Shown here: positions 1,502 through 5,930 of the stretch, piece by piece | Position numbering within the stretch: the first letter of the stretch is position 1 | Layout of the letters: the number at the start of each line of letters is the position of its first letter | From: Myxococcales bacterium | GTDB taxonomy: Bacteria > Myxococcota > Polyangia > HGW-17 > SLPX01 | Length of the DNA stretch: 5,930 bases | Reading direction: 5' to 3' | Assembly: GCA_007131745.1 (NCBI GenBank) | Contig: SLPX01000372.1 | Location: 1-5,930 of the forward strand | Notes under the pieces: model-generated | Seen by the model: the letters and a program-made list of their open reading frames with translations, nothing else | What the model was told of the DNA's origin: nothing | Database searches by the model: none | Program-made: the position numbers and the translations under genes

Positions 1502-3973
1502 TTGAGACCCATCAGAAACATCAGCATATGTGTGGTGGCATTTACTACACTCATGTTCATCGGCGCGTGTAAAGACGATGAACCTCCCACAGAGGTTGTT
1601 TGGCAGGATCTCAGGGTCAGGCTCACGCACAAGCCTGCACGACTGGAAATCCTCACCGCGGACGGAGAAGTGATCTTGCGCGGACTGCGTGGTGGAAAGG
1701 TCAGGGAAGGAGATGACCCGCACGTGGGCATGGCGTTCAGGGCCGCTGTAGCCTATTACGAGATGCTTTACGGGTCATTCTACATAGAGGAGACCTCTGC
1801 CGAACCCTGGCGGCCCGCAAGCAGAATTTCCCAGGTTGCAGAAACCGCTCTATCCTTGAGTTTCGATCTGCTTGATGAAAAAGGTTTGCCCGTCGCAAAA
1901 GGCTCAGTGGAATATGCGGGGCCGGGAGAGCTTTCGCTGGAGTTCAAGGCCGTTGCGGAAAGCGACAACAGGGTCTCGTTCGCGTACGAATGCCACCCAG
2001 GCGAACATTTCATAGGAATGGGCGGACAGAGCTTCGACGTGGACCATCGAGGACTCACCGTGCCGATATGGGTTCAGGAAGACGGCATCACAAAAGCCGA
2101 CACCAACGATTACGGAGCGGATCTCTGGTTTCTTCAGGGAAGAAGAAACTCCACCCATACCCCCATGCCCATCTTTTACTCGAGCAGGGGCTATGCATTG
2201 TTGCTGGACACCCCTTACCGGTCCCTGTTTTCCTTCTGCTCGGAAGATGACGGGGTCGTACGCATAGAGGCATGGGAAAACACCATGCGGCTGAGATTCT
2301 TTTACGGCCCTTCCCTCAGCGAAAGTATTCGCAAGGTCACCGCTTTTGTCGGACGGCCGGAAATGCCTCCGCCTTTCACTTTCGCACCGTGGCTGGATGC
2401 ATTGTACGGGTCGGACAACGTGCGGCGGGTTGCGGAAAAGCTGCGCGAGGAAGGCGTCCCCTCTTCCGTGATCTGGACCGAAGATTGGCGGGGCGGAGCG
2501 TTCGATGCATACGGTTACACCTTGGAAGAAGACTGGAGGGTGGACAGAGAACTCTATCCCGATTTCGAGCTTCTCGCCCAAGACCTGCACGACTTGGGCT
2601 TCAAGTTCCTGGTGTATAACAACACTTTTATCCACGAAGGGGTGGACGTGTGGGATGAGGCCGACTCCGCCGGGTACACCATTCAGAATGAAGCCGGCAA
2701 GACATACCTGTTTAGCAGCCACAAATTCGGCAAGTCTTCGCTGCTTGATCTAACAAACCCGGAGGCATGGGAGTGGGCCAAGGAAGTCTACCGCGAAGGG
2801 CTTTTGCTCGGAGCCGACGGCTTCATGGCTGATTTTGCAGAGTGGCTTCCGGTGGACGCTGTTCTGTATTCAGGTGAGGACGCTGAGGCCTATCACAACA
2901 TCTACCCGGTGGAGTACCAGCGATTGAACAAGGAGCTCTTCGACGAAATGTACGCTGAAGACGGAGTGGAGAGGCTCTTTTTCGTCCGTTCCGCGTACCT
3001 CTATTCTCAGCCGCTGGTATCCGTGGTATGGGCGGGCGATCAGCAAACCGACTTCTCGATCGACGACGGCATGCCGTCGGTCATCCCCATGGGAATCGGG
3101 CTGGGCGTAACGGGGTTTCCCTTCTACGGGCACGACATCGCGGGGTACATGAGCTTCATGACCCAGCCAGCGACAAAAGAGCTCTGGTTCCGCTGGACGA
3201 CCCTCGGCGCCCTGTCTCCCGTGATGCGGACCCATCACGGAAAAAGCGCTGATGAAAATTGGAACTTGGAGAGCGACCAAGAATCGATCGAACATTTCAA
3301 GGTCTGGGCGACTTTGCACATCCGCCTTTTCCCATATCTCTACGGCCTGGCGCGAATAGCGGTAGACGAAGGAATTCCCATGATGAGACCCCTGGCCCTT
3401 CACTATCCCGATTATGAAGAAAGCTGGACCTTGACCGATCAGTACATGCTCGGCGACCGCATCCTTGTCGCTCCCGTGGTGGAAGAAGGCGCCACGGCCC
3501 GAAAAGTCTTTTTCCCCGAAGGCACGTTCTACCCTTTGCTGGGAGGGGACCCGGTGGAAAGCCCGAGAGAGGGAAGTTACGTGACCGTAAACGCCGGTAT
3601 TACGGAGTGCCCGGCTTTTGTTCCCGCAGGCTCGATCCTGGTTTTTCTGCCCGAAGACATAGACACCCTGGTGGACGCGGATCCAAACGAAGACATAATG
3701 ACCCTGGACGACATGAAAGACGACCGCGTAATCCATGTTTTCCCCCGGGGTGAAAGCACCTGGACCGAAGCCTCCGGGCTCCAATACGACTGGAAGGCTG
3801 AATCCCTTCATACGCTTCCCTCGTCGGCCTCATGGAACGGCGAAACCGTGGCAATCGAAGGAAACACGGTCACCCTGCAAGGAAACGGCGAACTTCAACT
3901 CTCTTCCGACGCTTCCCTTACAATCGAGGGCGGCAAATCCGACCGCATCATCCAAGTCGTGTTCATGCACTAG
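1502..3973 (+). CDS. GH31 family alpha-glycosidase, lipoprotein, YihQ-like but without the sulfonate clamp
   Basis: An 823-residue retaining glycoside hydrolase that should release an alpha-linked sugar by double displacement. The start is TTG at 1502: the frame has an in-frame stop at 1460-1462, no ATG or GTG between, and AAAGGG eight bases before. Residues 1-23 are a lipoprotein signal ending FIGAC, with Lys and Asp after Cys23, so the enzyme is exported and membrane-anchored, probably in the outer membrane. An N-terminal beta domain (about 30-290) precedes the TIM barrel (about 295-650). Asp444 in the ADFAEW motif is the expected nucleophile and Asp513 in the WAGDQ motif the acid/base; MRTHHG (575-580) is also conserved. 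Beta-rich C-terminal domains follow (about 650-823), making it longer than YihQ (678). Aligned by memory to YihQ, the spacings fit closely: Tyr508 is kept (Tyr549), but Arg301 and Trp304 become Thr340 and Glu343, Gln288 becomes Glu327 and Gln262 falls at Leu301. Sulfoquinovose is therefore unlikely; the true substrate is unknown. Confidence 0.95.
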   Translation: MRPIRNISICVVAFTTLMFIGACKDDEPPTEVVWQDLRVRLTHKPARLEILTADGEVILRGLRGGKVREGDDPHVGMAFRAAVAYYEMLYGSFYIEETSAEPWRPASRISQVAETALSLSFDLLDEKGLPVAKGSVEYAGPGELSLEFKAVAESDNRVSFAYECHPGEHFIGMGGQSFDVDHRGLTVPIWVQEDGITKADTNDYGADLWFLQGRRNSTHTPMPIFYSSRGYALLLDTPYRSLFSFCSEDDGVVRIEAWENTMRLRFFYGPSLSESIRKVTAFVGRPEMPPPFTFAPWLDALYGSDNVRRVAEKLREEGVPSSVIWTEDWRGGAFDAYGYTLEEDWRVDRELYPDFELLAQDLHDLGFKFLVYNNTFIHEGVDVWDEADSAGYTIQNEAGKTYLFSSHKFGKSSLLDLTNPEAWEWAKEVYREGLLLGADGFMADFAEWLPVDAVLYSGEDAEAYHNIYPVEYQRLNKELFDEMYAEDGVERLFFVRSAYLYSQPLVSVVWAGDQQTDFSIDDGMPSVIPMGIGLGVTGFPFYGHDIAGYMSFMTQPATKELWFRWTTLGALSPVMRTHHGKSADENWNLESDQESIEHFKVWATLHIRLFPYLYGLARIAVDEGIPMMRPLALHYPDYEESWTLTDQYMLGDRILVAPVVEEGATARKVFFPEGTFYPLLGGDPVESPREGSYVTVNAGITECPAFVPAGSILVFLPEDIDTLVDADPNEDIMTLDDMKDDRVIHVFPRGESTWTEASGLQYDWKAESLHTLPSSASWNGETVAIEGNTVTLQGNGELQLSSDASLTIEGGKSDRIIQVVFMH

Positions 3974-4121: not shown

Positions 4122-5630
4122 GTGAAAACCAAAACAAAGGAAAAAACAAGATTCGCTCCCATGATCGAGTGGGAACTCACACGCGGTTGCAACTATCGTT
4201 GCGCTCATTGCTACGTTTTTCCGCATCGACCCAGACGTCATGAAATGAACACCCAAGAAGCCATGGACGTGGCCCGGACTCTTGCGGAAGCAGGCTGCAA
4301 GTCCGTGACCCTTTCCGGTGGAGAACCGACTTTGCGTGACGACTGGCATCTCGTGGCCGAAACCCTTGCAAGCAGAAACGTCGGAGTCCAAGTCTTTACA
4401 AATGGGCACAATATAGACGCGGAAACGGCACGAATTGCGAAAGAGTCCGGGGTTCGTTTTGTGTTCGTGAGCTTGGATGGGATGAAAAAGAGTCACGACC
4501 TTATACGAAAAAAATGCGGAGCTTTCGAAAAAGCCCTCCGCGCGATTGTCAATCTGCAGGATCAGGGGATCCCTGTCGGTATCAACACTACGCTGTTGAG
4601 CCCCAACATCCGGGATCTTACATCCATGTCTTCACTGGTGCGCGAGTTTGACATCCCTCTCTGGATGATCTGGTTGGGGATGCCGACGAAGAACAAGTAT
4701 GCACCCTTGTGGCTGAAGGAAAAGCGGGTGCCTGCGCTCGTCAAGGAGCTGAGAAAAATCCAAGCCTGTTGCCACTCTTTTTCGCCCGGCGACAATCTGA
4801 ACTCATTGCTTGGCACAAAAAGAATTTCCTCGATAATTACATCGAGAGGAAGTGGTTCATCCAACCCCGTGCCGGCCGAAGCGCTGTCACCATCTTCTTC
4901 TTCCTATATTGGGGGATGCCCGGCAGGGGTTTATACCCTCGCCTTGAAAAGCGACGGAAACGTCACCCTGTGTCCTGCGCTGGGGGAATCAGCTATTCTC
5001 GGCAACCTGACGGGTGAGTCTCCCCAAACCATAATGGAGAGAGCACGAAACGAAAAACTCGGCTTCTGTATTCAGGCGCGAAAAGCCCACACCGACAAAA
5101 AACATCTCTTTTCTCGCCATCCTTGCCACGCAACGCGTCTTGCGTACAAGCAAAGTGCCGCCGAAACTGCGCCGACCAATTCGTTCCTTCGCAAAACTGC
5201 TTGCATAATTGCTGCAGCGGGCCTCGCTGCTTCACCTCTGGCCTGTAGAAACGTAGAAAAACCAGACACATCCTCTCAGCCCCGCCCATCTGCAAACTCC
5301 GGACATCACGATGCAGCTTCTCCACCCACCTCCGAATCACCCTCGCCTTCTCCGCTGTCAAAAGAAGCGGATGGGGCAAAAAAGACCAAGGATCAAGGAG
5401 CCGTCCCGAGCACCGAAAGCATCGAAACCGAAACTGGGGCAAAAGAGATTCCCGACACAAAGCATCGAAATGAAAAAAGTGAAGAAATCACGAAGCCGGA
5501 TCTTTACGATCCGGACGGCCGTTACGCTCCAAACGGGATGCCTCTTTGCTGCATGATGCACGTCATTGTTCCTGGATGCAGGTGCGAATATCCCGCTGTG
5601 AAGGTCCTCAAGAAGAGACGCGTAGAATAA
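4122..5630 (+). CDS. Radical SAM protein with partial SPASM domain fused to an exported-looking Cys-rich tail
   Basis: A 502-residue protein starting at GTG 4122, with AAAGAGAG a few bases upstream. Residues 12-200 are a radical SAM core: C23-x3-C27-x2-C30 binds the 4Fe-4S cluster that cleaves S-adenosylmethionine, and SGGEPT (65-70) is the usual second motif. C266-x12-G279-x4-C284 matches exactly the first half of the SPASM motif of peptide-modifying enzymes. The expected CX2CX5CX3C half is absent; only Cys316 and Cys335 follow. From residue 357 comes RK plus a 16-residue hydrophobic stretch ending LAC (Cys375), like a lipoprotein signal or membrane anchor. A Pro/Ser/Thr/Glu/Lys-rich linker follows (about 377-458), then a Cys-rich end, C476C477MMH and C486RC488. 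No ATG, GTG or TTG lies in frame between the two parts after Met305. SPASM proteins typically modify ribosomal peptides, so the tail may be a tethered substrate; a deletion fusing a maturase to a precursor gene is the alternative. The radical SAM assignment is firm, the tail's role inferred. Confidence 0.92.
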   Translation: MKTKTKEKTRFAPMIEWELTRGCNYRCAHCYVFPHRPRRHEMNTQEAMDVARTLAEAGCKSVTLSGGEPTLRDDWHLVAETLASRNVGVQVFTNGHNIDAETARIAKESGVRFVFVSLDGMKKSHDLIRKKCGAFEKALRAIVNLQDQGIPVGINTTLLSPNIRDLTSMSSLVREFDIPLWMIWLGMPTKNKYAPLWLKEKRVPALVKELRKIQACCHSFSPGDNLNSLLGTKRISSIITSRGSGSSNPVPAEALSPSSSSYIGGCPAGVYTLALKSDGNVTLCPALGESAILGNLTGESPQTIMERARNEKLGFCIQARKAHTDKKHLFSRHPCHATRLAYKQSAAETAPTNSFLRKTACIIAAAGLAASPLACRNVEKPDTSSQPRPSANSGHHDAASPPTSESPSPSPLSKEADGAKKTKDQGAVPSTESIETETGAKEIPDTKHRNEKSEEITKPDLYDPDGRYAPNGMPLCCMMHVIVPGCRCEYPAVKVLKKRRVE

Positions 5631-5871: not shown

Positions 5872-5930
5872 ATGAAACGTCTGTTCGCTCTTGCGCTAGC
5901 TGCGCCATTTATGCTTGCCACAGTCAACGC
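5872..5930 (+). CDS. N-terminus of a Sec-exported protein (partial)
   Basis: Only 19 full codons are present before the right edge. They begin Met-Lys-Arg, then a hydrophobic run rich in Leu and Ala that ends near AxVNA at the edge, a typical Sec signal peptide with possible signal peptidase I cleavage just there. No lipobox Cys is visible yet. The start is supported by AAGGAG seven bases upstream and by the signal peptide itself. The mature protein lies outside the window, so its function cannot be stated. It follows the radical SAM gene by 241 bases on the same strand and appears to have its own promoter. Confidence 0.8.
   Translation, partial: MKRLFALALAAPFMLATVN

Follow-up and report, generated by a model that had tools for sequence, protein, structure and literature searches.

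The window, by which we mean the whole 5,930-nucleotide stretch of Myxococcales DNA analysed here, contains a gene in which a radical SAM enzyme is continued into a signal-like segment, a low-complexity linker and a short cysteine-rich end. The fusion of enzyme and tail is genuine, and the enzyme groups with the PlpX-type spliceotide maturases. Judging from the sequence, we put at roughly 60% the probability that the protein is a peptide maturase grouping with PlpX-type enzymes and fused to its own substrate, which would be modified in cis, exported and probably lipidated.

Architecture of the fused protein

The N-terminal part of the protein belongs to the radical SAM superfamily, with PF04055 matching residues 18–159 at 92.8 bits (E 3.5e-26, Pfam cut-off 29.5). 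The nearest solved structure, both by sequence and by fold, is the RiPP maturase SkfB. The region that follows the core is a degenerate SPASM domain; PF13186 reaches 17.4 bits over residues 266–312, below the Pfam cut-off of 21.5. The preliminary description of this DNA had the SPASM domain as missing, which is correct for the CxxCxxxxxC motif but overlooks a remnant that keeps C266, C284 and C335. Most of the seven cysteines that characterise the SPASM auxiliary cluster domain are gone, which counts against the reading given above.

Near residue 356 the protein changes character, as described previously. The segment FLRKTACIIAAAGLAASPLAC begins at residue 355 and has Cys375 as its final cysteine; within it, R357 and K358 precede a hydrophobic stretch of about residues 359–374, which closes as P-L-A-C375. 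A further 127 residues lie beyond Cys375, and the four cysteines among them are all contained in a CC-x8-C-x-C arrangement at residues 476–488. The linker, which had been estimated at about 80 residues, is about 100 residues long. In the AlphaFold2 model the enzyme is predicted with confidence and is followed by a helix at residues 354–368, beyond which pLDDT is below 50 for almost all residues and the tail takes no ordered placement. Searches of the tail against Pfam and NCBIfam gave no family above threshold, and PHROGs gave none.

Table 1. Features of the fused gene and their positions in the window (type A denotes the fusion type of the window protein)
Feature	Positions	Strand	Basis or remark
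Fused gene: radical SAM enzyme, signal segment, linker and Cys-rich end	4122..5630	+	502 aa, GTG start
Radical SAM core, residues 14–190	4161..4691	+	Pfam PF04055; AlphaFold2 pLDDT mostly >90
CxxxCxxC cluster motif, C23-C27-C30	4188..4211	+	Invariant in alignment A1, 9/9 type A
SPASM remnant, residues 265–345	4914..5156	+	C266 and C284 (first two SPASM Cys) and later C335 kept; CxxCxxxxxC lost
Lipoprotein-like signal segment, residues 353–375, Cys375 last	5178..5246	+	Hydrophobicity scan; model helix 354–368
Low-complexity linker, residues 376–475	5247..5546	+	Predicted disordered, pLDDT <50 nearly throughout
Conserved end CCMMHVIVPGCRC, residues 476–488, putative core peptide	5547..5585	+	9/9 type-A proteins
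Basic C-terminal extension EYPAVKVLKKRRVE	5586..5627	+	Varies among relatives

Separate translation of the tail was considered and rejected. ATG 305 is the sole ATG, GTG or TTG among codons 301–399, so there is no usual start codon near the tail that would fit a separate lipoprotein. Codon-use scores favour the frame of the fused gene over the other two frames in the enzyme and in the tail alike, and third-position GC is 0.48 in the tail versus 0.57 in the enzyme.

Whether the segment ending at Cys375 resembles an export signal was scored by looking for a hydrophobic segment (h12 ≥ 1.4) that closes in [AGS]C and has more than 20 residues beyond it. All 15 fused proteins have such a segment versus 8 of 116 other matches, a comparison that is not independent, as the fused set had been picked by eye beforehand. 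The PROSITE-like lipobox pattern, which we take to be PS51257, holds in 6 of the 9 type-A proteins and in 9 of the 15 fused proteins; it fails in the other 6 of the 15, including the window protein, which has Pro at −3 and does not score as a bacterial lipoprotein by this pattern. P0009, P0013 and P0014 have no net positive charge ahead of the hydrophobic segment. A signal behind 350 folded residues is unusual, and post-translational export would be needed. A hydrophobic stretch followed by AGC also occurs a few residues before the end of P0100, a pyruvyl-transferase/radical SAM protein.

The remainder of the window encodes several other proteins. The ORF at 3–1103 on the minus strand is lipoprotein-like, with a signal closing in LNTGC and an acidic, proline-rich C-terminus; neither Pfam nor NCBIfam gives a match for it at E ≤ 1. 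The plus-strand gene at 1502–3973 encodes a glycoside hydrolase family 31 protein with a lipobox-like N-terminus of its own (FIGAC); its top NCBIfam model is the alpha-glucosidase model NF007746, at 465 bits versus a cut-off of 553. The 300 bases 3′ of the fused gene inside the window hold unassigned short ORFs, and at 5872–5930 on the plus strand a protein that looks exported by eye begins as MKRLFALALAAPFMLA and is broken off at the window end.

Conservation of the fusion and a second fused type

A search of 5.8 billion proteins, with the best 7990 candidates scored, returned at least 114 matches. The fusion of the window, referred to as type A, is present in at least eight further proteins (P0002–P0006, P0009, P0013 and P0014), which are 27–49% identical to the window protein. 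P0007 and P0008, which come from short contigs that do not show their ends, were counted in neither type A nor type B. Where source names are given, they are Deltaproteobacteria (P0004 and P0009) and Myxococcales (P0012, a type-B protein). In the window's nearest relative, P0002, HPNQI tandem repeats are inserted at about residues 230–262, where they separate the SPASM remnant from the radical SAM core.

All nine type-A proteins share the same order: the enzyme is followed by a hydrophobic segment that closes in [AG]C, then by a low-complexity linker and CCxxHxxxPxCxC. Each has exactly four cysteines beyond the lipobox-like cysteine. Among the nine, the 13-residue end reaches a mean pairwise identity of 0.75, compared with 0.46 for the core and 0.245 for the linker. 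By this measure the end is conserved as well as the best catalytic motif: 7 of the 339 13-residue windows before residue 352 match its conservation, and the six shown start at residues 58–63, around SGGEPTL. As the combination is retained in distant relatives, it is probably a real self-processing device.

The preliminary description had proposed looking for homologs of the enzyme and of the tail separately, and had regarded SPASM-intact relatives with a stop codon and a separate precursor gene as the sign of a strain-specific deletion or an assembly error. The homologs turned out to be fused in the at least eight relatives above. Stand-alone tail proteins of 64–203 residues were sought with the C-terminal 40 residues of P0003 as query. 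A single candidate came up, and nothing reached E ≤ 10; exact shared words were required, so that distant forms could escape. P0003, P0004 and P0006 keep all SPASM cysteines, as judged by eye on the alignment, yet their tails are fused; in the precomputed Pfam list, SPASM is not assigned to any of the nine type-A proteins, these three included. A strain-specific deletion or artefact is rejected by the nine diverged fusions. That gene calling, a frameshift or the assembly has united two genes is extremely improbable, with an identical join in nine diverged proteins and a window frame that is open and codon-consistent.

The same three proteins bear on a further possibility, namely that the four-cysteine end bends back and supplies ligands to an auxiliary iron-sulfur cluster in lieu of the lost SPASM cysteines. 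In its favour, CxxCxxxxxC is missing in the window protein and in five others of type A, while the four tail cysteines are present in all nine. A role of the tail as replacement for SPASM ligands is spoken against by P0003, P0004 and P0006, in which this tail coexists with the SPASM cysteines. The signal-like segment also lies between the two parts, and the tail is disordered in the model. We regard this function as improbable.

The distribution of the fusion was surveyed with profile A1 in 643 genomes, comprising 199 Acidobacteriota (the phylum of G004), 150 Fibrobacterota (that of G001) and 294 Planctomycetota (that of G003), at E ≤ 1e-35, 1e-50 and 1e-55, respectively, and with the best 5–10 candidates per genome scored. 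Among the matches listed, none extends past profile position 395 of 460. Since no listed match reached the tail in these three phyla at such strict thresholds, the fusion may be limited to a narrow group. Inspection by eye of the printed frames of L072–L096 likewise revealed no fused tail of type A or B. In viral contigs (38 loci, scanned only for YG frames) no match extends beyond query residue 201.

Four other fused proteins (P0010, P0011, P0012 and P0021) constitute a second type, type B. They contain the full set of SPASM cysteines, a hydrophobic segment ending in [AGS]C and a Cys-rich tail, in the same signal-plus-tail layout as type A. The type-B tails carry CDYGVxPP-like repeats, for example CCECDYGVVPPGCC. 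YG occurs in all four type-B tails versus none of the nine type-A tails, and the window tail thus lacks the XYG of a spliceotide. When compared by eye, CC-EC-DYGVVP-PGCC of type B aligns over CC-MM-HVLVP-GCRC of type A, with His for Tyr. Kinship of the two tail motifs is nevertheless unsupported; when their profiles were compared, the probability was 4% over 5 columns, and the link between the types therefore rests on layout and enzyme kinship. Two further tails have motifs of their own. That of P0033 has AYGIIEP-like repeats, in a sequence without CxxxCxxC, and P0019 has YMVMPP.

The absence of YG from all nine type-A tails, together with the loss of SPASM ligands in six of the nine, could be read as decay, in which the tail of a former YG substrate lost its Tyr-Gly and was kept as an exported Cys-rich lipoprotein behind an inactive enzyme. 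Such a relic is improbable given that the CxxxCxxC motif is present in 9/9 proteins and that mean identity is still 0.46 in the core and 0.75 in the end.

Relationship to PlpX-type maturases and their YG-motif neighbours

The top NCBIfam model for the window enzyme is TIGR04103 (nif11-class maturase 3), which we take to be the same family as InterPro IPR026482. The match scores 143 bits, short of the cut-off of 725. The same model gives 273 and 276 bits for P0010 and P0011 (the type-B members scanned), 220 bits for L072 and 853 bits for a member from Nostoc; for P0003 and P0010, TIGR03913 scores slightly above it. The Nostoc nif11-class maturase 3 is encoded between a nif11 precursor ending in ALYGLPPELF and a 71-residue protein. 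PlpX is reported to be a member of IPR026482 and to remove tyramine from Xaa-Tyr-Gly jointly with PlpY, an RRE protein (PMC11002830, PMC10533398). The excision amounts to −135.08 Da (PMC10533398), and tyramine splicing is said to be widespread in nature (PMC11002830).

Phylogenetic analyses place the window enzyme with the TIGR04103 member, within a broad group. In a tree of 51 rows, 33 rows stand apart at 98 SH-aLRT, and these comprise all fused proteins, the Nostoc enzyme and 9 of the 13 split-labelled rows; the remaining four split rows, from Bacillota, go with TIGR04133. A 35-row tree separates 26 rows from 9 at 98/95, with the Bacillota, TIGR04133 and heme-type rows on the other side. Type A and type B form clades in the latter tree (100/99 and 96/91, respectively), and the position of the Nostoc row inside the 26-row group is weakly supported (52/43). 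A single origin for all fusions is not rejected (p-AU 0.38 with 15 rows and 0.31 with 14 rows).

Among the split relatives, enzymes from Acidobacteriota, Planctomycetota and Fibrobacterota are accompanied by a neighbouring protein in which YG...P motifs recur, and Bacillota enzymes, which fall outside the PlpX-type group in the tree, likewise adjoin such a protein. A neighbour with at least three YGx0-4P motifs was found for 17 of 23 high-scoring relatives versus 0 of 30 lower-scoring radical SAM loci; here the core and control loci were defined by match score, the threshold was set after inspecting the table, and nine Fibrobacterota core loci among the 23 are close kin. With three YG anywhere in the neighbour, the counts are 19/23 and 5/30. 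The six high-scoring loci without a YGx0-4P-rich neighbour are L051, L054, L087, L092, L094 and L096, among which L054 encodes close kin of the YGPP-linked Bacillota enzymes and has no such neighbour within about 1.5 kb.

The motifs and the proteins that carry them differ among the phyla. In Acidobacteriota, the neighbours of L072 and L073 are RYGVILP, MYGVALPP and KYGVLP proteins. Planctomycetota neighbours are RYGVIPP and YGPP proteins, and one of them (L095:951-1724) has VYGPP, VYGIP and VYGGP motifs ahead of a hydrophobic segment at its C-terminus. Fibrobacterota neighbours have KYGYPCG-like repeats: throughout L082–L091, except L087, the upstream neighbour contains 11–21 YG motifs, and the four that were printed have KYGYPCG-like repeats. 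It is possible that this neighbour is an unusually large splicing substrate. Two lipoprotein-like YGPP proteins adjoin the Ruminococcus enzyme of L002. VYGPPE[YW]F-like repeats are found in a lipoprotein-like protein (L056), an exported-looking protein (L055) and a DUF805 membrane protein (L053). The last, at L053:618-1406, has five YGPP motifs, is encoded by a gene overlapping the radical SAM gene, and is a possible substrate.

Proposed self-maturation and comparison with known systems

Gene fusion typically joins partners that are encoded separately in split systems, and the split partner of these enzymes appears to bear the target motif; on this logic the tail should be the substrate. The most likely reading of the sequence is thus that the tail is modified in cis by its own enzyme and then exported. 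The preliminary description had likewise suggested that the enzyme is linked to a Cys-rich substrate capable of export; it did not draw the connection to the spliceotide (YG) systems. The conservation of the fusion and the YG-motif proteins beside split relatives agree with this suggestion, whereas the lipobox of the window, with its Pro, does not conform to the lipoprotein pattern.

This imperfection speaks for a different reading, in which the enzyme is tethered to the membrane and acts on other substrates in trans. The signal would then be an anchor only, and the periplasmic CC...CxC end, together with Met and His, would be a metal-binding sensor or handle, for example for copper. To judge from its composition, the combination of Cys, Met and His would suit a soft-metal site such as copper. 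On the other hand, related enzymes accompany neighbouring motif-bearing proteins, type B has YG motifs at the same place, and a metal site alone leaves the fusion to a peptide maturase unexplained. We consider this reading unlikely, though less so than the cluster-ligand and relic explanations discussed above.

Under the preferred reading of a self-modifying fusion, the conserved 13-residue end would be the core peptide, carried on a flexible linker behind the lipoprotein-like signal segment. The long disordered linker would let the Cys-rich end reach the active site of its own enzyme, and modification would take place in cis, in the cytoplasm, ahead of export, since the enzyme resides in the cytoplasm. 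Export would then proceed via Sec with the N-terminus inside, and probable lipidation and cleavage at Cys375 would free a modified small lipoprotein. This product may bind metal, the alternative put forward in the preliminary description. The tether would in this way replace the separate leader and recognition protein of the split systems.

With YG absent from type A, tyramine excision is not expected as the chemistry of the window's type. Our best guess is a change at Cys, at the conserved His or at neighbouring residues. A more specific version, to which we give slightly less than even odds, is that self-maturing lipoproteins exist in two types: type B would excise tyramine from its own CDYGVxPP repeats, and type A, in which His-(Val/Ile/Met) replaces Tyr-Gly, would install a different, undescribed modification on CCxxHxxxPxCxC.

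The spliceotide systems (PlpX, TIGR04103) are among the closest; their enzymes group with that of the window, and the type-B tails and the split neighbours bear YG, the site of tyramine excision by PlpXY. The window system differs from them in that enzyme and putative substrate form a single chain, with a lipoprotein-like signal on the substrate, and in that YG is missing from type A. The rSAM/lipoprotein system (TIGR04133 with TIGR04134) likewise has a radical SAM/SPASM enzyme and is named for a lipoprotein partner, but enzyme and lipoprotein have separate models there, unlike the single chain of the window. The window enzyme reaches 77 bits against TIGR04133, whose cut-off is 425, and TIGR04134 does not match its tail at E ≤ 1; neither places the window protein in that system. 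P0042, by comparison, clears the TIGR04133 cut-off and carries an rSAM/lipoprotein source name.

Bufferins are similar to the window tail in being Cys-rich peptides that are modified in the cytoplasm by an MNIO, exported by Sec and metal-binding; they differ in the class of the enzyme and in being encoded separately from it. In the fungal borosins (OphMA), the modifying enzyme is fused to its own core peptide, and split versions are mostly bacterial (PMC8429565). The enzyme-core fusion is common to borosins and the window protein, although the borosin enzyme is a methyltransferase and not a radical SAM enzyme; an alpha-N-methyltransferase domain is absent from the five Pfam matches of the window protein. 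To our knowledge, borosins have no export signal between enzyme and core. The window system thus works like borosins in its enzyme-core fusion, with an enzyme that is kin to spliceases. Among the titles and abstract openings surveyed, we found no report of a radical SAM enzyme that forms one protein with its substrate; the key publication on widespread splicing, Scott et al. 2022 (Chem), may describe fused cases.

If the proposal is correct, a single gene would suffice for the enzyme, the substrate and the export signal of a modified peptide, and the family would be the radical SAM counterpart of the fused borosins. Modification in cis, and the hand-over of a folded iron-sulfur enzyme's own tail to the export machinery, would become directly testable. 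The analysis also indicates that, in several phyla, splicease-like enzymes have exported proteins with YG motifs as neighbours, in addition to a type whose chemistry would necessarily be different.
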